From: Acidobacteriota bacterium
Lineage (GTDB): Bacteria; Acidobacteriota; Holophagae; Holophagales; Holophagaceae
Direction: 5' to 3'
DNA: 64,000 nucleotides
Assembly: GCA_016213735.1 (NCBI GenBank)
Contig: JACQZU010000002.1
Span: 1-64,000, forward strand
Below are positions 3,900 through 23,266 of the stretch, in pieces; position 1 is the stretch's first letter, and each line of letters starts with the position of its first letter. A program made the position numbers and the translations under genes. Below the pieces are notes generated by a model. That model was not told where the DNA came from, made no database searches, and was given only the letters and a program-made list of their open reading frames with translations.

Positions 3900-4643
3900 T
3901 CAGGTTCGGGGGGTCCAGGGGTGGAGCCCGTCCAGGCTCCAGGCCAGGCTCCAAGCTCCCGAGGGGTCCCGGCGGGCCCGGAGGCGGACCTTCAGGGGCA
4001 GGACGAGGACCCCGGCCGCGGCGGCCCGGTGGAGTTCCTCCGCGTAGCCTGGGTCCACCTCCCGCGCCGCGTCGAAGGTGGACACGTCCCCCCGGTTCAC
4101 GAAAAAGGCGATGGCGGCGAGCCCCCCGGCCTCCACCACGCCCCGGAGTTCCCGGAGGTGCTTGGTCCCCCGTTCGGTGGCGGCGTCCGGGAAGAGGACC
4201 ATGGACCCTTGTCGGAGGGTGGTGTTCTTGACCTCCACCAGGACTTCCCTCCCCCGGGAGTCCAGGGCCGCGACGTCGACCCGGCTGCGTTCCCGGCCGT
4301 AGGGAACTTCGGTGCGAACGTCCCGGAGGCCCGGGAGCCCGGGGAGTTGGTCCCGCCGGGCCGCTTCGGCCACCACCTTGTTGGGGACCCCGGTGTCCAC
4401 CCCCACCCAGGTGCGCCCCCGGCGGCAGGCCACCCAGGTGAATTTCAGCCGCCGGTGGGGCGCGTCCACGGGGAGCAGCAGGACGGTGTCCCCCGGCGCC
4501 CAGCAGCCGGCCATGGTGCCCGTGTTGGTGCAGTGGGCGGTCACCACCTGGGCGTCCTCGAGTTCCACGTCCGCCAGGAAGCGCTGGTAGCGACGCCGGA
4601 CCCGGCCGGCCACCAGGCCCCGAAGGACCAGGAGGGGGCTCAC
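3900..4643 (-). CDS. sfsA: DNA/RNA nuclease SfsA family protein
   Basis: This 247-residue protein has the whole set of SfsA signatures: HCTNTGTM, GVDTGVPN, the nuclease-like VEVKNTTL and FPDAATERGTKHL. It was first described in E. coli as a sugar-fermentation stimulation factor and belongs to a PD-(D/E)XK-like nuclease fold family; its cellular role is uncertain. The GTG start overlaps the TGA of gmhB by four bases (GTGA), so the two are probably co-translated. Confidence 0.93.
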   Translation of the reverse strand: MSPLLVLRGLVAGRVRRRYQRFLADVELEDAQVVTAHCTNTGTMAGCWAPGDTVLLLPVDAPHRRLKFTWVACRRGRTWVGVDTGVPNKVVAEAARRDQLPGLPGLRDVRTEVPYGRERSRVDVAALDSRGREVLVEVKNTTLRQGSMVLFPDAATERGTKHLRELRGVVEAGGLAAIAFFVNRGDVSTFDAAREVDPGYAEELHRAAAAGVLVLPLKVRLRARRDPSGAWSLAWSLDGLHPWTPRT

Positions 4644-5203
4644 GCCCCCGCCAGGATGCGGTCCACGGCCTCGGCCAGGTCCTCGGCCACGAAATCAGCC
4701 AGGGAGGCGTCCTGGGTGGCCCCGTAGCCCGTGCGAACCAGGGCCACCCGGCACCCGGCGTTGCGGCCCGCCTCCAGGTCCAGGACCTTGTCCCCGATCA
4801 TCCAGGAGGCCGAGAGGTCCAGGCCGTGCTCCTCCGCCGCCCGGCGCAGCATCCCGGGGTTGGGCTTCCGGTCGGGGTGGTCGGGGTGCCGGTATTCGCC
4901 CTGGCCCTCCGGGTGGTGGGGCGCGGCGTAGGCCGCGTCGAGGTGGGCCCCGGCGCGGGCCAGCTCCTCCCCCAGGCGCGCCATGACGGCCCCGTAAGCC
5001 TTCCAGGAGAAGCGGCCCCGGCCGATGCCGCTCTGGTTGGTCACCACCACCACCGGGATGTCCCGTGCGTTGAGGCGGGCCACCGCCTGGGCGGATCCCG
5101 GAATCAGCACGAGGTCTTCGACCCGGTGGAGGTGGTCCACCTCGACGTTGAGGGTGCCGTCGCGGTCCAGGAACACCGCGGGGCGCCCTGGACCCGAGCT
5201 CAC
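4640..5203 (-). CDS. gmhB: D-glycero-D-manno-heptose 1,7-bisphosphate 7-phosphatase
   Basis: The 187-residue HAD-superfamily phosphatase acts in ADP-heptose synthesis for the LPS inner core. It has motif I FLDRDGTLN, motif II VVVTNQSGIGRG, the RKPNPGM segment and motif III/IV IGDKVLDLEAG. The zinc-binding loop is partly visible as AAPHHPEGQGEYRH, with histidines but no cysteines. Related histidinol-phosphate phosphatases look similar, but no his genes are nearby and kdsB and lptD in the window support an LPS role. The GTG start overlaps the preceding stop by four bases. Confidence 0.85.
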   Translation of the reverse strand: MSSGPGRPAVFLDRDGTLNVEVDHLHRVEDLVLIPGSAQAVARLNARDIPVVVVTNQSGIGRGRFSWKAYGAVMARLGEELARAGAHLDAAYAAPHHPEGQGEYRHPDHPDRKPNPGMLRRAAEEHGLDLSASWMIGDKVLDLEAGRNAGCRVALVRTGYGATQDASLADFVAEDLAEAVDRILAGA

Positions 5204-14845: not shown

Positions 14846-16198
14846 ATGAACCTCCTCGCCATCACCCGCCATGCCGCCCTCGTCGAGCGATTGCGGATGG
14901 CGTTCGAGGGGGCCGGGCACCAGGTCTTCCAGGTGCAGGACCCCCTGCAGGCCCTCGCCACAGAGGCCTGGAACCAGGCCCAGATCCTCCTCGTGGACGC
15001 CGCCGGCGATCCCGTGGACGGCTACCGGCTCTGCAAGCTCCTCCGGGGCGAGATCCGCCCGCAGTTCCACAACCTGGGCATCTTCATGATCCTCGAGTCC
15101 CCGCCCACCGAGGACGACCTGGACCGCCTCAAGGCCGTGGACGCCGACGGCTTCGTGTCCCACGAGCAGAGCCTCCAGCAGATCCTGGGGCTCCTGGGCC
15201 CCGCCATGGGGGGGGAGCTCCAGAAGAGCCAGGGGCCGCCGGTGCTCGTCCACGCCACGGGGCTCCCCTCCGCCCTGTTCCGCCGCATCCAGGAACTCCT
15301 GGGGCACTTCCGCTTCGACCTCAAGCGCGTGCCGGCCCGGAACCTGCCGGAGGTGCTGGAGGAGGACGGGGCCTCCATCCTGCTCATGGGGACCGACCCC
15401 GACGGCTCCCGCACCCTGGCCCGCCTCCAGACCCTTCGCTCCAGGACCGAGCTGCCCTACCTGATCCTCATCGGGGCCCTGCCCGACGAGGCCTCCCAGC
15501 GGAAGCTCTTCCTGGGAGGGGTGGCCGACTGGCTGCCCCTTCCCCTCTCCGCCCCCCGCATGCTCCACGCCTGCCGGCGGGCCGTGGAATGGCACCAGGC
15601 CCAGCGGATCAAGCGGGAGTTCGAACGGCAGATCGGCGAGCTCCGGGAGCGGAGGGCCCTGCTGGAGATGGAGGCCGCGGCCCTGCGCAACGAAGTCCTC
15701 ACCGACCCCATGACCGGCATCCTGAACCGCCGCTCCTTCGACCAGAACCTGGACCACGCCTTCCGCCAGTGGGAGCGCCACCGCCGGAGCTTCGTCCTCA
15801 TCCTGGGGGACGTGGACCACTTCAAGCTGGTCAACGACCGCTTCGGCCACCTCGTGGGCGACCAGGTCCTGCGGGGCCTGGCCCAGCGCCTGCGCACCTC
15901 CCTGCGCCGGTCCGACCTGGCCTTCCGGATCGGCGGCGAAGAGTTCGCCGTGATCCTGCCCGAGACCAGCCTCCGGGCGGGACACGATGTGGCCGAGAAG
16001 CTCCGGCGCAAGATCGACCAGGAGCCCATCACCCTCGACAGCGGACGGAAGATCTTCCCCACCATGAGCTTCGGCGTCGGCTCCGTCCGCGGCGCCAGCC
16101 CCATGGAGTTCTTCGCCCAGGTGGACCAGTCCCTGTACCGCGCCAAGAAGGGAGGCCGGAACACGGTGGAAGTGCTGGAGGAGGCCGAGGCGAAGTAG
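14846..16198 (+). CDS. Diguanylate cyclase with tandem receiver domains (PleD-like)
   Basis: This 450-residue cytoplasmic protein has a receiver-like domain (about 1-125, LLVDAAGDPVDG as the acceptor region), a second receiver-like domain (about 130-250) without a clear phospho-acceptor Asp, a short coiled coil, and a GGDEF domain. The active site reads GGEEF (363-367), and RRSD five residues before it is an intact inhibitory I-site, so product feedback is expected. It should make cyclic di-GMP. The two-receiver-plus-GGDEF order is that of PleD. It lies 29 bp after alr and ends at the accessory region. Confidence 0.92.
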   Translation: MNLLAITRHAALVERLRMAFEGAGHQVFQVQDPLQALATEAWNQAQILLVDAAGDPVDGYRLCKLLRGEIRPQFHNLGIFMILESPPTEDDLDRLKAVDADGFVSHEQSLQQILGLLGPAMGGELQKSQGPPVLVHATGLPSALFRRIQELLGHFRFDLKRVPARNLPEVLEEDGASILLMGTDPDGSRTLARLQTLRSRTELPYLILIGALPDEASQRKLFLGGVADWLPLPLSAPRMLHACRRAVEWHQAQRIKREFERQIGELRERRALLEMEAAALRNEVLTDPMTGILNRRSFDQNLDHAFRQWERHRRSFVLILGDVDHFKLVNDRFGHLVGDQVLRGLAQRLRTSLRRSDLAFRIGGEEFAVILPETSLRAGHDVAEKLRRKIDQEPITLDSGRKIFPTMSFGVGSVRGASPMEFFAQVDQSLYRAKKGGRNTVEVLEEAEAK

Positions 16199-16217
16199 GC
16201 GGGTCCGTTTCCGTCGC

Positions 16218-16340
16218 GGCCACGGACCCGGCCACGGACCCGGCCACCGTCACGGCCACGGCCACGGCCACGGACTCGGCCCCGGCCCCGGTCACGGCCC
16301 CGGTCACGGTCACGGCCCCGGCCCCGGTCACGGCCCCGGA
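16218..16340 (-). repeat. Hexanucleotide repeat tract B (GGCCAC-type)
   Basis: There are about 20 six-base units on the plus strand (GGCCAC, GGACCC, GGCCCC, GGTCAC, one CGTCAC). This is the reverse complement of the GTGGCC units of tracts A and D. The tract begins just after a GGCGGGTCCGT sequence that also precedes tract D. It runs into the 3' end of the four-helix-bundle gene, whose stop codon (16328-16330) lies in a repeat unit. Confidence 0.9.
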
Positions 16341-16660
16341 TGCGTCAGCCTCCACAACATCGCCAACAGCCGGTCCAGCAGCCCCTCGACCTCCGGCGCG
16401 GGCGGGATCTCCCCCCACGCCCGGGCCACATCCAGCGCCGCCCGCAGCTCCCGCGCGCTCCCCTGGGCGATCCGGTAGAACTGCATCCGGTCCCGCCCCC
16501 GGCGCCCCGCGCCCTCGCCGAGGTTCAGCACCACCGACGATCCCGCCCGCCGCAACTGGTCCGCCAGATCCCGATCGTGCAAGCGCAGCGCGTCGTGGAG
16601 CGGCCGCAGCCCCACCATCAGCCCCAGCGCGACCTCGTAGGCGTGGAATCCCTTTTCCAT
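16328..16660 (-). CDS. Four helix bundle protein (S23/IVP-Avd-like)
   Basis: This 110-residue all-helical protein resembles the family named for proteins encoded in 23S rRNA intervening sequences, which also includes the Avd accessory protein of diversity-generating retroelements. The order is YEVALGLMVGLRPLHDAL, the helix DRDLADQLRRAGSSVVLNLGEGAGR (the SS..NxxEG core is typical), RDRMQFYRIAQGSARELRAAL and a C-terminal helix. I chose the ATG at 16660, with GGGGAGAT upstream, over an upstream in-frame start. The function of stand-alone members is unknown. It sits between hexamer tracts B and C with a 20-bp perfect inverted repeat just upstream. I see no reverse transcriptase or variable repeat here. 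Confidence 0.75.
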   Translation of the reverse strand: MEKGFHAYEVALGLMVGLRPLHDALRLHDRDLADQLRRAGSSVVLNLGEGAGRRGRDRMQFYRIAQGSARELRAALDVARAWGEIPPAPEVEGLLDRLLAMLWRLTHPGP

Positions 16661-16668
16661 GTCATCTC

Positions 16669-16741
16669 CCCTTTCCGGCCGCCCCACCGAGGACCGCCCT
16701 CACCCACGGCGGGTGGCCGCAGGTGGGGCGGCCGGAAAGGG
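16669..16741. repeat. 20-bp perfect inverted repeat upstream of the four-helix-bundle gene
   Basis: Bases 16669-16688 (CCCTTTCCGGCCGCCCCACC) pair perfectly with 16722-16741 around a 33-base spacer. The left arm ends eight bases before the start codon of the minus-strand gene, overlapping its ribosome-binding region. It could form a cruciform or a 5'-UTR hairpin that masks the ribosome site, or be the end of a small mobile unit. There is no T-run, so it is not an ordinary terminator. Confidence 0.85.
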
Positions 16742-16799
16742 AACGGGAAATCCGAATCTCCACGCCTGCGAGGCCGCGCGGCAGCGGGGAAGGGGCTTC

Positions 16800-17090
16800 G
16801 GACACCGCCACCGACACGAACCCGGACACGGTCACCGCCACCGTCACGGCCACAGACACGGTCACCGCCACCGTCACGGCCACCGACACGGCCACGGTTT
16901 CGGCATCGGCATCGGCATCGGCATCGGTGTCGGAATCCGAATCCGAACCCGATCCCGAGTCCGACTCCGACTCCGAATCCGAACCCGAATCCGAGGGCCG
17001 ATCCTCCGTGGCCGGGGCGGTAGCCGTGGCCGTATCCGTGGCGGTGGCGGTGGCCGTGGCCGTGGCCGTGACCGGGTCCGTGGGCGGACT
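16800..17090. repeat. Hexanucleotide repeat tract C (composite, inverted halves)
   Basis: About 290 bp with period six. The left half uses CACGGC/CACCGC-type units (16800-16902). The middle has GGCATC units and TCCGAA/TCCGAC units (16903-17000). The right half uses GTGGCC/GTGGCG units (17015-17085). The left and right halves are therefore roughly complementary and could fold back. It fills most of the gap between the four-helix-bundle gene and the cassette array. Confidence 0.88.
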
Positions 17091-17133
17091 GAAAGCCCTG
17101 CCTGGCACTCCACCCCTCGCCGCCGATCGGCAC

Positions 17134-17162
17134 TTGCTGCCGACAAACGAAACCCCTACACT
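17134..17162 (+). promoter_or_regulatory. Candidate promoter upstream of the cassette array
   Basis: TTGCTG (17134-17139) and TACACT (17157-17162) are separated by 17 bases, in a locally AT-richer stretch directly after repeat tract C. It points toward the cassettes, about 240 bp before the first cassette gene. An integron Pc-type promoter would occupy this position. A short open frame of 63 codons (17184-17375) follows, but has no recognisable protein and is not annotated as a gene. Confidence 0.4.
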
Positions 17163-17331
17163 TTCCGCATTCAGGACCCGCAGATGACGATCCCCTTACC
17201 TCGCCCCACCCTGGCCGGCGCCCGAAAACCGCCTGCGGGCAAGGCCTGGAGATCTTGGACCGGGACCCGCGAGTTCGTGTTTGCTTTTCGTAGCCCGATG
17301 GGATTTTCAACAGTTACGTTTTCAAACACCG

Positions 17332-17373
17332 AATTAGGCGAACGGGTGCCTCCCGTGCCAGTACGCCTAAATT
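17332..17373. repeat. Nested palindrome with TTAGGC/GCCTAA ends before cassette 1
   Basis: AATTAGGCG (17332-17340) pairs with CGCCTAAATT (17364-17373, one bulged base). Inside it ACGGG (17342-17346) pairs with CCCGT (17352-17356). ATTAGGC (17333-17339) matches an attC/attI crossover core (GTTRRRY) with one change. The first cassette gene starts 31 bp after the palindrome. It may be the left recombination point of the array, or a relic of it. No attI consensus can be assigned with certainty. Confidence 0.5.
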
Positions 17374-17404
17374 GAAATTTGGGCGCGCTCCCACTGGAGA
17401 TCTA

Positions 17405-18301
17405 ATGCAAAACCCTTTCCCAATTTGCCTATATTTGAACCAAAAATACGTGTTTGATCTACTTGCAATGATGGAGGATGGATTTTCTTTTCTTCAAAAT
17501 ATAAAATCAACAAGCTCTGAAAAAGAAGATCGAGAAAAACATATCGAATCTGAAATTGGCGTAAAAAATGTGTTCGCTTTTCTGGGTGTATCACTAAAGG
17601 GTGGTGGAAGTAAAAAAGATCAAACCGGTCAGACTAACGAAACCAGTAGTGAGCGTGTTCATACTCCAAATTCTTTGTTTGGGAAAATGAGAACAGCATT
17701 ATATGATAAAGGATTAATAACCGTTAATCCAAGAATTGATATTGAAAGTGGTACATTTGTAGAATTAAAAGTTACATTAAAAAAGAATCCTATGATTTCA
17801 ACATTAGAAAGCATGGCTCAATTATTCGAAACAGCCATTGTTTTTATCGATGCTGGGGTAGAGTCTCAAAAACACGCAGGTAAATCTGTGTCAAACAAGA
17901 AATCACCAACCGAAAATCAAAAAATTCTTGATCAGATGAAAATAATTTTGGCTCAATTAAATCAAGGCAGCACAATCGATCTATTAGCCTATCCCGTACA
18001 AGGTAATCCTTTTAACCTTGTTCTAACAATTGATCCTTCGTTTCTTAGCGACCCTCGAATGTCTGATTTAATTGATGGCGATTACACCATCCTTGGTAAG
18101 GTTTCAAAAGTTATACAAAATAAAACTGAAACCATCAACCTTCTTCGAAAAACATCTTTCGGTAAAATGAACACTCAAATGCTCGAAAGTTTTAAATTTC
18201 CTCTTGAGAAAATGAGCGAAAGTGGGTTGCAAGTAGAAGAACTTACTACTGAAGTTCTTGGCCCTGCTATGCAGATTATTCCCATCGCTATCTTCGCCTA
18301 A
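17405..18301 (+). CDS. Cassette 1: DUF6414-like protein
   Basis: This 298-residue soluble protein has no membrane segments. It is strikingly AT-rich and lysine/asparagine-rich compared with the flanking genes, which marks it as acquired. From memory its layout resembles the DUF6414 family: an N-terminal YLNQKYVFDLL strand-helix, a polar Ser/Lys-rich stretch, FGKMRTALYDKGLI, GTFVELKVTLKKNP, and a C-terminal NLVLTIDPSFL...DGDYTILGKVSKVI followed by INLLRKTSFGKM. The family's function is not established. I chose the ATG at 17405 because GGAG lies five bases upstream. The stop TAA is the middle of the GCCTAAT core of attC1, as is common in integron cassettes. Confidence 0.7.
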   Translation: MQNPFPICLYLNQKYVFDLLAMMEDGFSFLQNIKSTSSEKEDREKHIESEIGVKNVFAFLGVSLKGGGSKKDQTGQTNETSSERVHTPNSLFGKMRTALYDKGLITVNPRIDIESGTFVELKVTLKKNPMISTLESMAQLFETAIVFIDAGVESQKHAGKSVSNKKSPTENQKILDQMKIILAQLNQGSTIDLLAYPVQGNPFNLVLTIDPSFLSDPRMSDLIDGDYTILGKVSKVIQNKTETINLLRKTSFGKMNTQMLESFKFPLEKMSESGLQVEELTTEVLGPAMQIIPIAIFA

Positions 18302-18419
18302 TCAGGCGTTCAACTCGGGCCCAGCCGCAAGTGTCTTCCGCTCTCCCTTCAACTTCTCAATTTCCCGTCCCCTCCGGTCCGCCGGTTTCGGCTGGTCCGG
18401 TTAACTTGGTTCGTTAGGC
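18296..18419 (+). other. attC recombination site 1
   Basis: This 124-bp imperfect palindrome runs from GCCTAAT (18296-18302) to GTTAGGC (18413-18419), a perfect GTTRRRY core. The arms pair: TTCAACTCGGGCCCAGCCG near the left end matches the reverse complement of CGGCTGGTCCGGTTAAC near the right end, with one unpaired base in the left arm, as expected of attC L-boxes. The central part is unpaired. It is closely similar to sites 2 and 3. Confidence 0.82.
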
Positions 18420-18425
18420 GTCTCA

Positions 18426-19106
18426 ATGCACATGGACGAATTCGCGCAAATTTTCGCTCAATTTCAAGACCACTTGGCCCCACGGCTGGATGTCTATGAA
18501 CAGGCGATTTATCTGTATGTTTTGCGACACACTGTAATCGAGGGGAAGCGTGAAGAAATCATCGGCTTTAAGTCTGCGCGTAAGAAATTGGCCTTCGGGA
18601 TTGGCAAAGCCGGTACCCCTCCCTCTGAACACATAATTTACGAAAAGCTAAGGACCCTAGAAACCAAGGGCTGTATAAAGATCGTTGGCAGCGAACGATC
18701 AGGTACTCGTTTACAGATTGTGTTACCGAGCGAAATTCCGGACCTTCTGCCGGTTGCTTCTGCAACTATAAAGTTCAACTTGGAGGAACTAGATTTCTTC
18801 GCTCTCCCAGAGAATCGCAAGCTCATCCTTGAGCGCGAAAATTGGCATTGCTTCTATTGTCTTGCCAAACTCGATGAGAACAACCATGTCATCGAGCATG
18901 TGGTGTCGCGCCCCGAAGGCGACAATTCGTATCGCAATATCGTGGGCGCTTGTCGACGTTGCAACAACCGTAAGGGGAGCTCGAGTGCCGAAGATTTTCT
19001 TCGCTCGCTTTACCGCGTAGGCATCTTATCCGGTGACGAATTTCCTCTTCGCCTATCGCTTCTCAACAGGCTATTAGCTGGTGAACTAAGACCAATTTTA
19101 CCATGA
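18426..19106 (+). CDS. Cassette 2: winged-helix/HNH endonuclease
   Basis: This 226-residue protein starts seven bases after the attC1 crossover. The N-terminal half (about 1-110) looks like a winged helix of the replication-initiator/DNA-binding kind (YEQAIYLYVLRHT...SEHIIYEKLRTLETKGCI). The C-terminal half is an HNH nuclease: zinc pair CFYC (about 142-145), EHVVSR with the catalytic His, Asn in NIVGACRRCNN, and a second Cys pair CRRC. It may be a restriction-like or transcription-linked nuclease carried for defence; that is inference. ATG at 18432 is an equally possible start. No strong ribosome site is seen. Confidence 0.78.
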   Translation: MHMDEFAQIFAQFQDHLAPRLDVYEQAIYLYVLRHTVIEGKREEIIGFKSARKKLAFGIGKAGTPPSEHIIYEKLRTLETKGCIKIVGSERSGTRLQIVLPSEIPDLLPVASATIKFNLEELDFFALPENRKLILERENWHCFYCLAKLDENNHVIEHVVSRPEGDNSYRNIVGACRRCNNRKGSSSAEDFLRSLYRVGILSGDEFPLRLSLLNRLLAGELRPILP

Positions 19107-19109
19107 GAT

Positions 19110-19232
19110 GCCTAACACCTCGTTCAACTCGGACCCAGCCGCGAGTATTTTCCGCTCTCTCTCATGGCGGTGTTTCCCCGTCTCTGTTCATGGTCCGGCT
19201 TGCGGCTGGGCCGGTTAACTTTTTCCTTAGGC
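19110..19232 (+). other. attC recombination site 2
   Basis: This 123-bp imperfect palindrome runs from GCCTAAC (19110-19116, a perfect RYYYAAC core) to CTTAGGC (19226-19232). The arms TTCAACTCGGACCCAGCCGC and the complement of GCGGCTGGGCCGGTTAAC pair with a single extra base. It follows the cassette 2 stop by three bases. Confidence 0.85.
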
Positions 19233-19249
19233 AGCGTCTGGAGGACGCA

Positions 19250-19608
19250 ATGAACTGAATGCATCATCCTGATCAGCCCGCGATCGCCTCCTGTATGGGA
19301 TGTGGGGCTGGCCTTTGTTCTGCTTGTGGTTCACTGATGGCGGCTGGAAAACACTGCTGCGGCCAAGATTGTGCATCCACAATCAATACTCATCATCAAG
19401 CGTTTTCGGAACTCATCGCGAAAAGTAAATTTAGTTACAAATTATTGCCTGCAGTGATGCTATCACTTGGAAAATTTTCCCGGTTCTGGGTTTATCTTCA
19501 CTATTGCTAGGTCGTTTTGGTAGGGCCGATTTTATGACCATCGTCATTGGTATCATATTCATTGCCCTTGGAATCTACGCAAAAAAGAATCTCACGTCCG
19601 CTGCCTAA
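19250..19608 (+). pseudogene. Cassette 3: zinc-ribbon membrane protein, nonsense and frameshift
   Basis: The intact reading from 19259 gives 83 residues with a CMGC...CSAC zinc-ribbon of the kind that usually begins MxCxxHPxxxAxxxCxxC. Upstream in the same frame ATG AAC TGA (19250-19258) puts a stop exactly where the first zinc Cys should be, just before MHHPDQPA. Near 19472 the run GGAAAATTTTCCC breaks the frame. Reading on in the -1 frame gives FPVLGLSSLLLGRF, then a membrane helix TIVIGIIFIALGIYA and ends in GCC TAA, the attC3 core, just as cassette 1 does. One missing A would restore it. It is decayed, or expressed by frameshifting. Confidence 0.65.
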
Positions 19609-19728
19609 GCCAGGGCTCAACTCGGGCCAAGCCGGTCCTGTCTTCCAATCTCCTATGAACTCTTCAGATTTCTCGCCCCCAACCACCGCCCGGCCTGCGG
19701 CTGGACCGGTTGACTTTTTCCTTTAGCC
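19603..19728 (+). other. attC recombination site 3
   Basis: This palindrome of about 126 bp runs from GCCTAAG (19603-19609) to TTTAGCC (19722-19728). The arms CTCAACTCGGGCCAAGCCG and the complement of CGGCTGGACCGGTTGAC pair with few mismatches. The right core is degenerate relative to GTTRRRY, so it may recombine poorly. Confidence 0.75.
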
Positions 19729-19750
19729 TTTCCACCCGAGGGGATCCACG

Positions 19751-20236
19751 ATGACCCCAGAATTAAAAATCTCGATCACTTCTCTTGTTGTGAGCTTTTG
19801 CGCGATGGCTACGGGTGTCATACAGTCCGTTATCCAACGGCGGCATCACAATTTAATGGTCCGTCCATATTTAGATCAATTGCGAATCAAAAATGGTCAT
19901 ACCCCATATTATTGGGAAATTGTTAATTGCGGATTAGGTCCAGCCATTATCACGAACTTTGTGGTTGTAATTGGCACCAAGGTCCTCAAATTTCCTGAAA
20001 TTGATCAAATTGAATCCGAATTGAGAACCATCGGGATCCCCCTGAAAAATGGAATAGGGAATTTATCAAAAAATTCAATCATAAGGACTGGTGAAAACAT
20101 TAGATTACTAGAATTTGATCAAGAAGAAATATTACCGTATTCCGGGATCCTGAACCATATCAGGTGGGAAATTGGATATTCATGTGCATATGGTACGAAA
20201 TTTACCCTGGTTTTCCCTGCTTCCTCCCCCCCTTGA
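19751..20236 (+). CDS. Cassette 4: small membrane-anchored protein of unknown function
   Basis: This 161-residue protein has one N-terminal membrane helix (about residues 7-25, ITSLVVSFCAMATGVIQSVI) and a soluble domain with NCGLGPAIITNFVVVIGTKV, which looks like a beta-rich fold. I do not recognise a family. The start has GAGGGGAT upstream. Base composition is AT-rich like cassette 1 and unlike the chromosome. A decayed attC begins at its stop codon. Confidence 0.7.
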   Translation: MTPELKISITSLVVSFCAMATGVIQSVIQRRHHNLMVRPYLDQLRIKNGHTPYYWEIVNCGLGPAIITNFVVVIGTKVLKFPEIDQIESELRTIGIPLKNGIGNLSKNSIIRTGENIRLLEFDQEEILPYSGILNHIRWEIGYSCAYGTKFTLVFPASSPP

Positions 20237-20350
20237 CCCATCGTTCAACCCACTCCCGGCCCCCACGATCCTCCGTGCCCCTTCCCCCTTCTGCGTCCCC
20301 CACGCGGGTCCGCGCCCAGGCTGCGGCAGGTCCGATACACTCCCCTCGCC
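20230..20350 (+). other. Decayed attC site 4 (right end of the array)
   Basis: The left part CCTTGACCCATCGTTCAACCC lines up with CCTAACACCTCGTTCAACTC of attC2. GGCTGCGGCAGGTCCG (20319-20334) lines up with GGCCTGCGGCTGGACCG of attC3, at nearly the expected distance. The right GTTRRRY core is gone. It looks like a worn site that fixes the right edge of the array. Confidence 0.5.
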
Positions 20351-20393
20351 CGGGGGGCGTGCCCAACGCGCCTGGCCGGCCCCGGAGGTCGCC

Positions 20394-20840
20394 ATGAAGA
20401 CCACCCTTCAATTCTCCGAATTCATCCAGTCCCCCAGGGCACGGGTCTGGGAGACCATGCTGGACCCTGATTCCTACCGGCTCTGGACTTCCGAATTCTG
20501 CGAGGGTTCCTGCTACGAGGGATCCTGGGCCCAAGGTTCCCGGATCAGGTTCCTGGCCCCGAACGGCGATGGCATGACCTCGGAAATCGCAGAAAACCGC
20601 CTGCACGAACGCATCTCCATCCGCCACCTGGGGGAAGTCAAGGCCGGGGTGGACGACCTGGAGAGCGCCTCGGTCAAGGACTGGGCCCCGGCCTACGAGA
20701 ACTACACCTTCACGGAGGCGCCCGGCGGCACCGAGATCCAGGTCAGCGTGGAAGTCACTCCGGATTTCGTGCCCTACATGAAGGACACCTTCCCCAAGGC
20801 CCTCCGGCGACTCAAGTCCCTGTGCGAGTCCGGCTCCTGA
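20394..20840 (+). CDS. SRPBCC (START-like) domain protein
   Basis: This 148-residue protein has the helix-grip layout of the AHSA1/SRPBCC superfamily: TLQFSEFIQSPRARVWETMLDPDSYRLW at the start, a central GSRIRFLAPNGDGMTSEI strand pair, YENYTFTEAPGGTEIQVSVEV and a long C-terminal helix. Ligand and role are unknown. The ATG at 20394 has GGAGG five bases upstream. Composition is high-GC, so it belongs to the chromosome rather than to the cassettes. A GATACACT sequence at 20334-20341, within the decayed attC, could be its -10 element. Confidence 0.8.
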   Translation: MKTTLQFSEFIQSPRARVWETMLDPDSYRLWTSEFCEGSCYEGSWAQGSRIRFLAPNGDGMTSEIAENRLHERISIRHLGEVKAGVDDLESASVKDWAPAYENYTFTEAPGGTEIQVSVEVTPDFVPYMKDTFPKALRRLKSLCESGS

Positions 20841-20847
20841 AGGCGGG

Positions 20848-20962
20848 TCCGTGGCCGTGGCCGTGGCCGATTCCGTGGCCGTGACCGTGGCCGTGGCCGT
20901 GGCCGTGACCGTGACCGTGTCCGTGGCCGTGGCCGTGTCCGTGGCCGAGCCCGTGCCCGCGT
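20848..20962 (+). repeat. Hexanucleotide repeat tract D (GTGGCC-type)
   Basis: There are about 18 six-base units (GTGGCC, GTGACC, GTGTCC, one GATTCC) filling the 128-bp gap between the convergent SRPBCC and lptD genes. It starts with GGCGGGTCCGT, as tract B does. It has no terminator shape of its own. Confidence 0.9.
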
Positions 20963-20968
20963 CCCCCT

Positions 20969-23266
20969 TCAGCGCCGGTAGGTGAACAGGTCCCCCAGCC
21001 CCCTCAGGGTCAGGGTCAGGTCCACGCGGTTCTCGGTTCCTCCCACGCCCACCTGGGTGAGGGTGGCGCGGGAGTAGCGGAGGATCCACCCCACGCAGGG
21101 GGTGACGTAGGCCAGGGCCACCTGGGCGTTGGAGAAGGTCTTCTGGTCGTAGTCGTAGGCCCCCTGGAACTCCAGCCGCAGGCGGTCGTCCCAGAAGCGG
21201 CGCAGGCCCGCGAGCTGGACGCCGCGCTGGCGAACGAGGAAGCGGTTCAGGGCGGAGGAGAAGGCGGAGAGGCTGAGGAGGCTGCCGTCCCGGCCGCGGT
21301 ACTCGGTGGAGAGGGAAGTGTCCGCGCCGCCTTCGCCCAGGTCGGAGGAGCGGCGGAAGCTGAGGCGGAGGATGTCGTTGGGCTCGGCGTCCACGTCGCT
21401 GTCCAGGCTGGCCCAGCCCTTCTTGGTGCGGCCGTCGGGCAGCAGGATGGGCGTGGCGTGGAAGCGCGTGGAGAGGCGCCAGCGCAGGAGGTCGGCGAAG
21501 GGGAAGCCCTCCCCGGGGCGGCCCATGACGTGCTGCTTGAGGCCGATCTCGAAACTCTCCTCGCCCACGGCGCTGGCCCCCACCCCGGGGCGGGAGTCCA
21601 GGTCGTCGAAGCGGGGGATGCGTGCGTCCAGCCCGAAGCGGTTGACCTTGGTGAGGGCCCAGAAGGGCTCCAGGACGTGCTTGAGGTCCCCCGTCCAGCC
21701 GAAGGCGCTGACCTCCTCGAAGCTCCGTCCCAGCTGGGGTCCGGAGAACTGGAAGCGCAGGCTCCCCAGGTGGCGGGTGGCCGCGGGCCCCTCCACCCGG
21801 AAGGGGCTCAGGAGGGATTCCAGGGGCGCCTGGCTGGACCCGTCCGTGCCCGTCTGGAACACCGCGTCCTTGAGGATCCCGCTGTAGCGGGTGATGCGCC
21901 CTCCGGCCTGGAAATCCGCCCGGAAGGGGCCCCACTGCCCCAGGCGGCCGTAGAGGCGGGCCGCGAGGTCGAGGCGGTTCCAGGCGAAGCCCTGATCCGG
22001 GGCGTCCTCCCCCACCTGCACCCGGTACCCGAAGCGGTTGGCCCGCAGGTCCGCGTCCAGGTAGAGGGGCCCCAGGGGGACGGGGAAGATGCGGAAGTCC
22101 ACCTGGGGGGTGGTGCGGCGCTTCAGGGAGGCGGGCACGGTGGTGCCGTAGAAGGGGTCGTTGGGATAGGAGAAGCTGCGCTGCTCGGCGCTGGAGAGGG
22201 AGAAGCCCATCCAGCGGAAATTGCGGCCCAGGTAGACCGCGCTGTCGAAGGGGTTGGGGCCGGGACTGCCCACGCCGCGGCCGTAGTCGTTCTCCAGGAG
22301 GTTGTCCGAAGCCTGGTTCAGGTCCGCGGCGAGCTGCCAGCCGTCCTCGCGCTGCCAGATCTCGCGGAAGCCCACGCGGTAGCGCCGGAGGTCGGGGCTG
22401 CGCTGATCGATGTGCTGGGCCTGGAGCGAGCCCTGGTGGGTGGGCTCGGGGTTCCAGCGCAGCTCCCCCCCCAGCATCAGGCCCTGGCGGCTGAACCACT
22501 GGGGCATGAAGGTGGCGTCGGCGCTGGGACCCAGCACCTGGTAGTAGGGCGCCCCCACGGTGGCGCCCAGGGTGCCGGAGTAGCCCAGGGTGGGCGGGAG
22601 GAGGCCCGTGGAGCGCTCCGCCTTGGCGGGGTAGATGGCCCAGGGGAGGAACAGCACGGGCACGGGCCCCACGATCACCCGGGCCCGGGTGAAGGTGGCG
22701 AAGCCGTCCAGGTCCAGGTTCAGGCTGGAGAGCCGGGCCACCCATCCGGGGCGTTCCTGGGGGCAGGGGCTGATCTCCACGGTGTCGAAGCGCCAATGCC
22801 GGAAGGTGGTGAACTCCACCCGGTCGCTGCGGAGCACCCAGGTGGGGGCGATCTCGATCTCCAGGGCCTGGGCCTCGCCGATCTGCTTCCGCCAGTCCAT
22901 CCGGAGGCGGGAGCAGCGCAGGCTGAGATCCGGAGCCTCCAGGCGGATGCGCCCCTCCGCGAGGACCTCTCCGGTGGCCGGGCGGAATTCGATGCGGTCC
23001 GCGACGATCATCACCGCCTCGGACTGGATGACCCCGGACTCCAGGGTCCAGAGTTCGGCGCTCTCGCGGACCCTTTCCCCCCGCCAGCGGAAGGGGACCG
23101 CGCCCTCCCGGCCCTCTTCCAGGCCGAAGGGGCGCAGGGGGAGCAGGTCGGCGGGTTCCTGGAGGACCCGCGGGGCCTGGGGCGGGAAGGGGGGAAGCTC
23201 CCCGGCGGGGGCCCGCAACCCCGCGGCGATCAGCAGGAGCGGGAGGACCCGGGACCCCTCGGCCAT
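20969..23266 (-). CDS. lptD: LPS-assembly protein LptD
   Basis: This 765-residue outer-membrane protein inserts lipopolysaccharide into the outer leaflet together with LptE. A signal peptide is followed by an OstA-type beta-jellyroll (about residues 65-190, with VMIVADRIEFRPATGEVLAEGRIRL) and a large beta-barrel with the LptD core block LFLPWAIYPAKAERSTGLLPP. The C-terminus ends in alternating barrel strands. The cysteines that crosslink E. coli LptD are not evident. It is the last gene of a run with the ZIP transporter and RNase E/G. Confidence 0.93.
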   Translation of the reverse strand: MAEGSRVLPLLLIAAGLRAPAGELPPFPPQAPRVLQEPADLLPLRPFGLEEGREGAVPFRWRGERVRESAELWTLESGVIQSEAVMIVADRIEFRPATGEVLAEGRIRLEAPDLSLRCSRLRMDWRKQIGEAQALEIEIAPTWVLRSDRVEFTTFRHWRFDTVEISPCPQERPGWVARLSSLNLDLDGFATFTRARVIVGPVPVLFLPWAIYPAKAERSTGLLPPTLGYSGTLGATVGAPYYQVLGPSADATFMPQWFSRQGLMLGGELRWNPEPTHQGSLQAQHIDQRSPDLRRYRVGFREIWQREDGWQLAADLNQASDNLLENDYGRGVGSPGPNPFDSAVYLGRNFRWMGFSLSSAEQRSFSYPNDPFYGTTVPASLKRRTTPQVDFRIFPVPLGPLYLDADLRANRFGYRVQVGEDAPDQGFAWNRLDLAARLYGRLGQWGPFRADFQAGGRITRYSGILKDAVFQTGTDGSSQAPLESLLSPFRVEGPAATRHLGSLRFQFSGPQLGRSFEEVSAFGWTGDLKHVLEPFWALTKVNRFGLDARIPRFDDLDSRPGVGASAVGEESFEIGLKQHVMGRPGEGFPFADLLRWRLSTRFHATPILLPDGRTKKGWASLDSDVDAEPNDILRLSFRRSSDLGEGGADTSLSTEYRGRDGSLLSLSAFSSALNRFLVRQRGVQLAGLRRFWDDRLRLEFQGAYDYDQKTFSNAQVALAYVTPCVGWILRYSRATLTQVGVGGTENRVDLTLTLRGLGDLFTYRR

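Follow-up and report, generated by a model that had tools for sequence, protein, structure and literature searches.

A decayed, integrase-less integron cassette array with a putative attI-like platform of its own in a Geothrix-like member of the Holophagaceae

Integrons have been described with a single attI beside intI, and clusters of cassettes that lack an integrase are usually taken as debris. Clusters of attC sites without intI are well known, and it is accepted that they can be mobilised in trans (PMC12444791). The authors of IntegronFinder have proposed that such clusters of attC sites lacking an integrase (CALINs) are degraded integrons (PMC9024848), and a prophage of Shewanella offers one precedent for an attI heading an integrase-less attC cluster (PMC9892861).

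Here we describe an array located in the interior of a 71.8 kb contig (JACQZU010000002.1, hereafter C22) of a soil-type Acidobacteriota bacterium of the family Holophagaceae (GCA_016213735.1). The window, meaning the whole stretch of DNA analysed, covers positions 1-64,000 of this contig (G000:C22:1-64000) and the host genome, G000, comprises 3.59 Mb in 28 contigs. The host is a Geothrix-like member of the Holophagaceae, with an integron integrase 73-77% identical to its counterparts in Geothrix and other Holophagaceae (Acidobacteriota). Pattern and profile searches were extended to 41 genomes, 14 with a full intI and 27 without. The array is probably a decayed satellite of a chromosomal integron that has one IntI and many platforms, and would have been filled by that IntI acting in trans.

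attC sites and cassettes of the window

A sequence-only reading of the window had proposed three imperfect palindromes with integron attC architecture, and their coordinates, their GCCTAA start and their two common arms all proved right. The covariance check that it called for was run with a model of our own (R1), built from 29 attC sites on other contigs of G000 with no window sequence, and describing a hairpin with 7 R''/R' pairs and, in an L stem with three one-base bulges, 18 more. In the training alignment 96.7% of cells are paired, six pairs show changes on both sides and the covariation score was reached by none of 500 shuffles. A search of 155 kb returned exactly the three window palindromes (E 4e-24 to 7e-21; 84-111 bits), each an imperfect hairpin with L boxes and extrahelical bases, all on the forward strand: attC1 (18296-18419, 96.0 bits), attC2 (19110-19232, 110.7 bits) and attC3 (19603-19728, 84.3 bits). 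As a model trained outside the window recovers all three sites the proposed architecture is borne out, and the palindromes are integron attC sites. When 5 kb were searched with filters off a further match (18.5 bits, E 5e-4) appeared at 20231-20354 on the same strand, abutting the stop codon of the cassette 4 gene. This faint match directly after cassette 4 indicates a probable remnant, attC4, of a site that once closed the cassette and is now nearly erased.

The R''/R' boxes (RYYYAAC ... GTTRRRY) remain recognisable in all three sites, each with at least one altered triplet: AAC of R'' has become AAT in attC1, R' of attC2 lacks the G of GTT (CTT) and both triplets are changed in attC3 (AAG ... 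TTT). The recombination triplets are thus broken in every window site and in the attC4 remnant as well; they are intact in 33 of the 46 other sites of G000, where those with broken triplets are mostly low-scoring. Folding of the single strand, which taken alone is weak and not decisive evidence for attC, gave z values of -1.35, -2.64 and +0.84 for attC1, attC2 and attC3, the first and last lying near shuffled sequence. A pattern search with the L'' arm was usable at zero mismatches only, since at two it returned hundreds of matches, about as many as a control pattern.

The palindromes might instead be terminators or an intergenic repeat unrelated to attC, and a scan does report stems resembling terminators in two arms. 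The attC-specific bulges, the R and L boxes and the compensatory changes argue against this, as does the occurrence of the same elements in one-orientation cassette arrays and their linkage to intI. We consider this alternative extremely improbable and, on the covariance search together with the intI-linked arrays, ruled out.

The four cassettes delimited by these attC sites lie in one orientation and are AT-rich as had been proposed, with a GC content of 34-52% inside a region of 70-75%. All four genes are on the forward strand. That of cassette 1 (17405-18301) encodes a DUF6414 protein (PF19952, 118 bits) and has its stop codon in the attC1 core; the claim that two frames end in the TAA of such a core holds for this gene, but the second frame is a mere tail of one broken inside cassette 3. 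The cassette 3 gene (19259-19608) encodes a small putative zinc-binding or membrane protein with a weak match to zf-B_box (E 0.04) and, judged by reading the sequence, retains an intact start (19259-19510) and a tail ending in the attC3 core. Cassette 4 (gene at 19751-20236) has no Pfam match, and relatives with 36% and 25% identity lie in two ectopic arrays of the related genome G003. Cassette 2 (gene at 18426-19106) encodes an HNH endonuclease (PF01844, 31 bits).

A homologue of this HNH protein with 53% identity is found in a burkholderial cassette array adjoining intI (L179:2764-3417), flanked there by attC of another type, which suggests that this type of cassette has moved between phyla. 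A 28-residue stretch also has a 96% match adjacent to intI where a proteobacterial contig ends (L161:2-85). Defence models searched against the window cassettes matched the HNH domain of cassette 2 only, and a defence function for the cassettes was rejected. A promoter scan of the leader and cassettes gave nothing clearly above shuffled sequence, and Rfam at gathering scores found a tRNA as its sole match over the window.

The integrase and the other arrays of the genome

A genome-wide search for intI, also called for by the sequence-only reading, was carried out with TIGR02249 and returned one protein above the cut-off of 265, encoded on contig C3 (454 bits). It aligns over its full length with the Vibrio cholerae IntI4 structure 2A3V, integron-specific region included, which identifies it as the integron integrase IntI, a tyrosine recombinase with the integron-specific region. 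The window is indeed free of an integrase as had been stated, and the single full IntI of G000 is accompanied on C3 by attC sites of the same type. With three attC sites and one remnant the window array falls within the CALIN class, defined by at least two attC sites and no nearby integrase, and outside the class of complete integrons, in which intI adjoins attI and cassettes. The earlier CALIN label is therefore supported, yet it is incomplete in two respects: a leader and a degenerate attI-like site (17085-17390) belong to the array, and it is itself one of several such platforms, with decayed sites, in a genome with one IntI.

R1 counts approximately 49 attC sites in G000, distributed over C3, C19, C6, C7, C27, C23, C12 and the window. 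The arrays of C3 and C27 are cut off by the ends of their contigs, those of C19, C6 and C7 by a contig start or end, and these five are probably pieces of long arrays broken at repeats. Such contig ends, together with 240 bp common to the ends of C19 and C7 at 99.6%, could be taken to mean that the separate arrays are a single one split by an assembly artefact. We give this hardly any credence, since the window array lies within its contig between ordinary flanks and the same multi-array layout is present in the relatives G003, G008 and G021, assembled in one or two contigs.

The arrays differ in their state and content. On C6 (L062 2205-13596) attC sites close to the head are intact, and those further along are ever more mutated towards the tail, forming an ageing gradient. 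The platform on C12 (L066 2800-5800) is followed by TIR-domain genes, one of them resembling a CBASS Cap12 effector, and past one attC (4572-4696) the array carries two TIR-domain genes resembling Thoeris ThsB; this integron-type platform appears to hold anti-phage genes. On C27 (L064 2770-3047) the platform matches the region of the intI attI at 87.5% identity across 280 bp, and approximately the first 18 codons of intI survive there. This is a duplicated integron minus its integrase and, as these codons are retained, a duplicated integron of G000 can also lose its intI.

The attI-like platform and its leader

The left edge of the array at 17332 is more than a bare boundary. We find there an attI-like site (17330-17384, forward strand; TTAGGCGAAC ... 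CGCCTAAATTGAAATTTGGGC) that the sequence-only reading leaves undescribed, and which was aligned with 12 other platforms, three of the 13 sites being attI adjoining intI. Its pattern is TTAGGCGnACT, a spacer of approximately 20 nt and then CGYCTAATTCAAA/GTTAGGC, apparently a decayed copy of the attI of the G000 intI. That attI reads CTTAGGCGTACTCG ... CGTCTAATTCAAAGTTAGGT immediately ahead of its first cassette and the window copy reads TTAGGCGAACGG ... CAGTACGCCTAAATTGAAATTTGGGC. This block also stands at the start of the C27 and C23 arrays, where the GTT exchange triplet is intact, and the version on C12 is CGCCTAACTCAAAGCTAGGC. In the window copy the core, the inverted partner and the upstream repeat are all present and aligned, with GTT mutated to TTT.

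A profile of the platform (R2) scores the window site at 31.2 bits, the site itself being among its training sequences. An HMM of the 12 other sequences gave its sole matches of at least 8 bits in the 64 kb at the platform (13.8 and 11.2 bits), and with scores this low the identity of the platform rests mainly on the homology of its leader with that on C23. This leader, termed leader B (17085-17329, forward strand), shows 87-89% identity to the leader of the intI-less C23 array over approximately 260 nt and 82% to that of C12 over 72 nt. The alignment between C22 and C23 runs up to the GTTAGGC exchange point and ends there. Together the attI-like block, the leader identity and the HMM matches argue that the window array is headed by its own predicted attI-like site, the GTT of which is now mutated, and we describe it on these grounds as a decayed platform.

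Leader B was not found in 40 relatives, and its interpretation as a family-wide element was rejected as G000 is its only carrier. A hairpin within the platform was likewise discarded as a common defining trait, since it is pronounced in C23 and at a single G008 site and absent at the intI attI of G003 and G021. A near-perfect inverted repeat (TTAGGCGTACCGG ... CCGGTACGCCTAA) joins the upstream element to the core in two ectopic platforms (L192:8501-8551 and L063:3614-3665), with none at the intI attI of G003 and G021. A palindrome, TTAGGTTTGYCTAA, recurs upstream of intI or of array heads (L191, L193, L195) and is possibly a binding site for a regulator or for IntI.

The platform and array form part of a larger island (16199-20968) of 4.77 kb, inserted between convergent genes for a GGDEF regulator (14846-16198) and an LptD-like protein (20969-23266), which in 9 of 12 relatives lie within approximately 100 bp of each other with the island absent. 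On its reverse strand the island carries a four-helix-bundle gene of the 23S rRNA IVP type (16328-16687; PF05635, 49.8 bits; TIGR02436). This gene accompanies leader B on C22, C12 and C23, the C12 and C23 copies showing 70% and 90% identity. Inverted GCCGTG-type hexamer repeats flank the island (16029-17090 and 20840-20970), recur beside leader B on C23 and may have helped to copy it.

A platform without intI could also be the wreck of a second complete integron whose own integrase gene, once beside it, has been lost. C27 illustrates such a route, with its intI attI region and the 18 or so remaining codons, and the view of CALINs as degraded integrons held by the IntegronFinder authors (PMC9024848) points the same way. 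For the window array we nonetheless regard this origin as unlikely. No trace of intI (tblastn, E<0.01) was found in the 3 kb ahead of the C22 and C23 platforms or in 2.85 kb at C12, and none was found at the ectopic platforms of G003 and G021. In addition leader B does not resemble the leader that precedes the G000 intI attI, and what its three copies have in common is the four-helix-bundle gene.

Platforms across the Holophagaceae and service in trans

The attI-like block occurs several times per genome in members of the Holophagaceae, and complete genomes of the family repeat the design of one intI and several such platforms, each at the head of an array. In G003, a single contig, the intI array occupies 561-581 kb, and ectopic arrays, every one with such a block at its head, lie at 1528-1547 kb (more than 30 attC), 2640-2642 kb, 3180 kb and 3245 kb; G021 and G008 are alike. 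G008 stood outside the training of R2, which matches it at the intI attI and 380 bp before the array at 2973882, and a platform variant can be seen at the third G008 array. R2 matches (E<=1e-3) occur in 8 of the 14 genomes with a full intI and in none of the 27 without, a co-occurrence with a chance probability of approximately 3e-5 by our own count, in which three of the eight genomes trained the profile and some matches are the intI attI itself. The attC-like clusters on contigs C16 and C24 of G013 (L194, L195) showed no attI-like platform at their heads.

Signs of use come from the boundaries of these platforms. Five pairs were compared (C22/C23, C3/C27, G003c/G021c, G003e/G021d and two intI attI sites), and the 300 nt preceding GTTAGG are 82-90% identical, with identity falling to or near the shuffle level beyond it. 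Orthologous platforms of different species keep the leader and carry different cassettes. Within one genome, stretches are common to different arrays: 96.7% over 459 bp between the intI array and an ectopic array of G003, 99.1% over 552 bp and 99.4% over 323 bp between G021 platforms, and 98.9% over 1591 bp between two G008 arrays. In G003 and G021 these near-identical stretches are bounded by attC or platform cores.

IntI could also have inserted cassettes at a random non-attI site (attG), with no dedicated platform involved. In E. coli such insertion of cassettes at attG by IntI has been documented (Loot et al. 2024, cited in PMC12444791), and it could found CALINs. Against this the shared platform sequence extends over approximately 54 nt, upstream repeat included, is kept between species and follows the same plan as the intI attI, and we judge an attG origin very unlikely.

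The breakpoints, the shared cassettes and the single IntI of G000 make service in trans the simplest reading, and we infer that IntI acted in this way at the window platform. The IntI encoded on C3 would recombine circular attC cassettes into the attI beside its own gene and would also insert them into several attI-like platforms at scattered places. Behind leader B, the window platform would have gained at least four cassettes by this route. The array would then have decayed through mutation of the platform exchange triplet and of at least one triplet per attC, and through loss of the cassette 3 frame. Given a broken triplet in every attC and this lost frame we take the array to be a fossil satellite, presumably now immobile. 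More generally the Holophagaceae probably possess a multi-platform integron in which one IntI serves several dedicated, conserved attI in trans, the window array being a dead member and cassettes, as part of the same reading, being kept and swapped among three to five separate loci.

If many clusters own attI-like platforms filled in trans then such clusters would be a working part of the integron, and a genome would have several first-cassette positions and possibly several promoters. The origin of CALINs becomes testable in the Holophagaceae, where platforms have repeatedly arisen and decayed, and an attI profile provides a sequence handle for locating platforms that IntegronFinder, the attI search of which is restricted to class 1, does not offer outside that class. 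Our partial coverage of the literature yielded no description of chromosomes with multiple attI platforms kept from one species to another and no relevant report on integrons of Geothrix, Holophagae or Holophagaceae.

Among known systems the window array resembles the CALIN class of IntegronFinder (PMC9024848) in combining clustered attC sites and cassettes with the lack of a nearby integrase, its sites being fewer and more decayed than those of the intI array, but it adds an attI-like platform and leader of its own, homologous in layout to those beside intI. The Shewanella prophage (PMC9892861) is similar in having an attI-type site at the head of an intI-less array and a complete integron in the same genome; it is a single phage case, whereas a Holophagaceae genome has several platforms on its chromosome, at places conserved across species and with large arrays. 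The attG sites (Loot et al. 2024, via PMC12444791 and PMC12901181) share insertion by IntI outside its own attI, but are described there as neither attC nor attI, whereas the Holophagaceae platforms are attI-like. The chromosomal CALINs of Xanthomonas (PMC12444791) likewise combine one intI locus with several intI-less arrays at fixed places and, unlike the Holophagaceae arrays with their platforms, are presented in the available portion of that account with no attI-like site at their starts.
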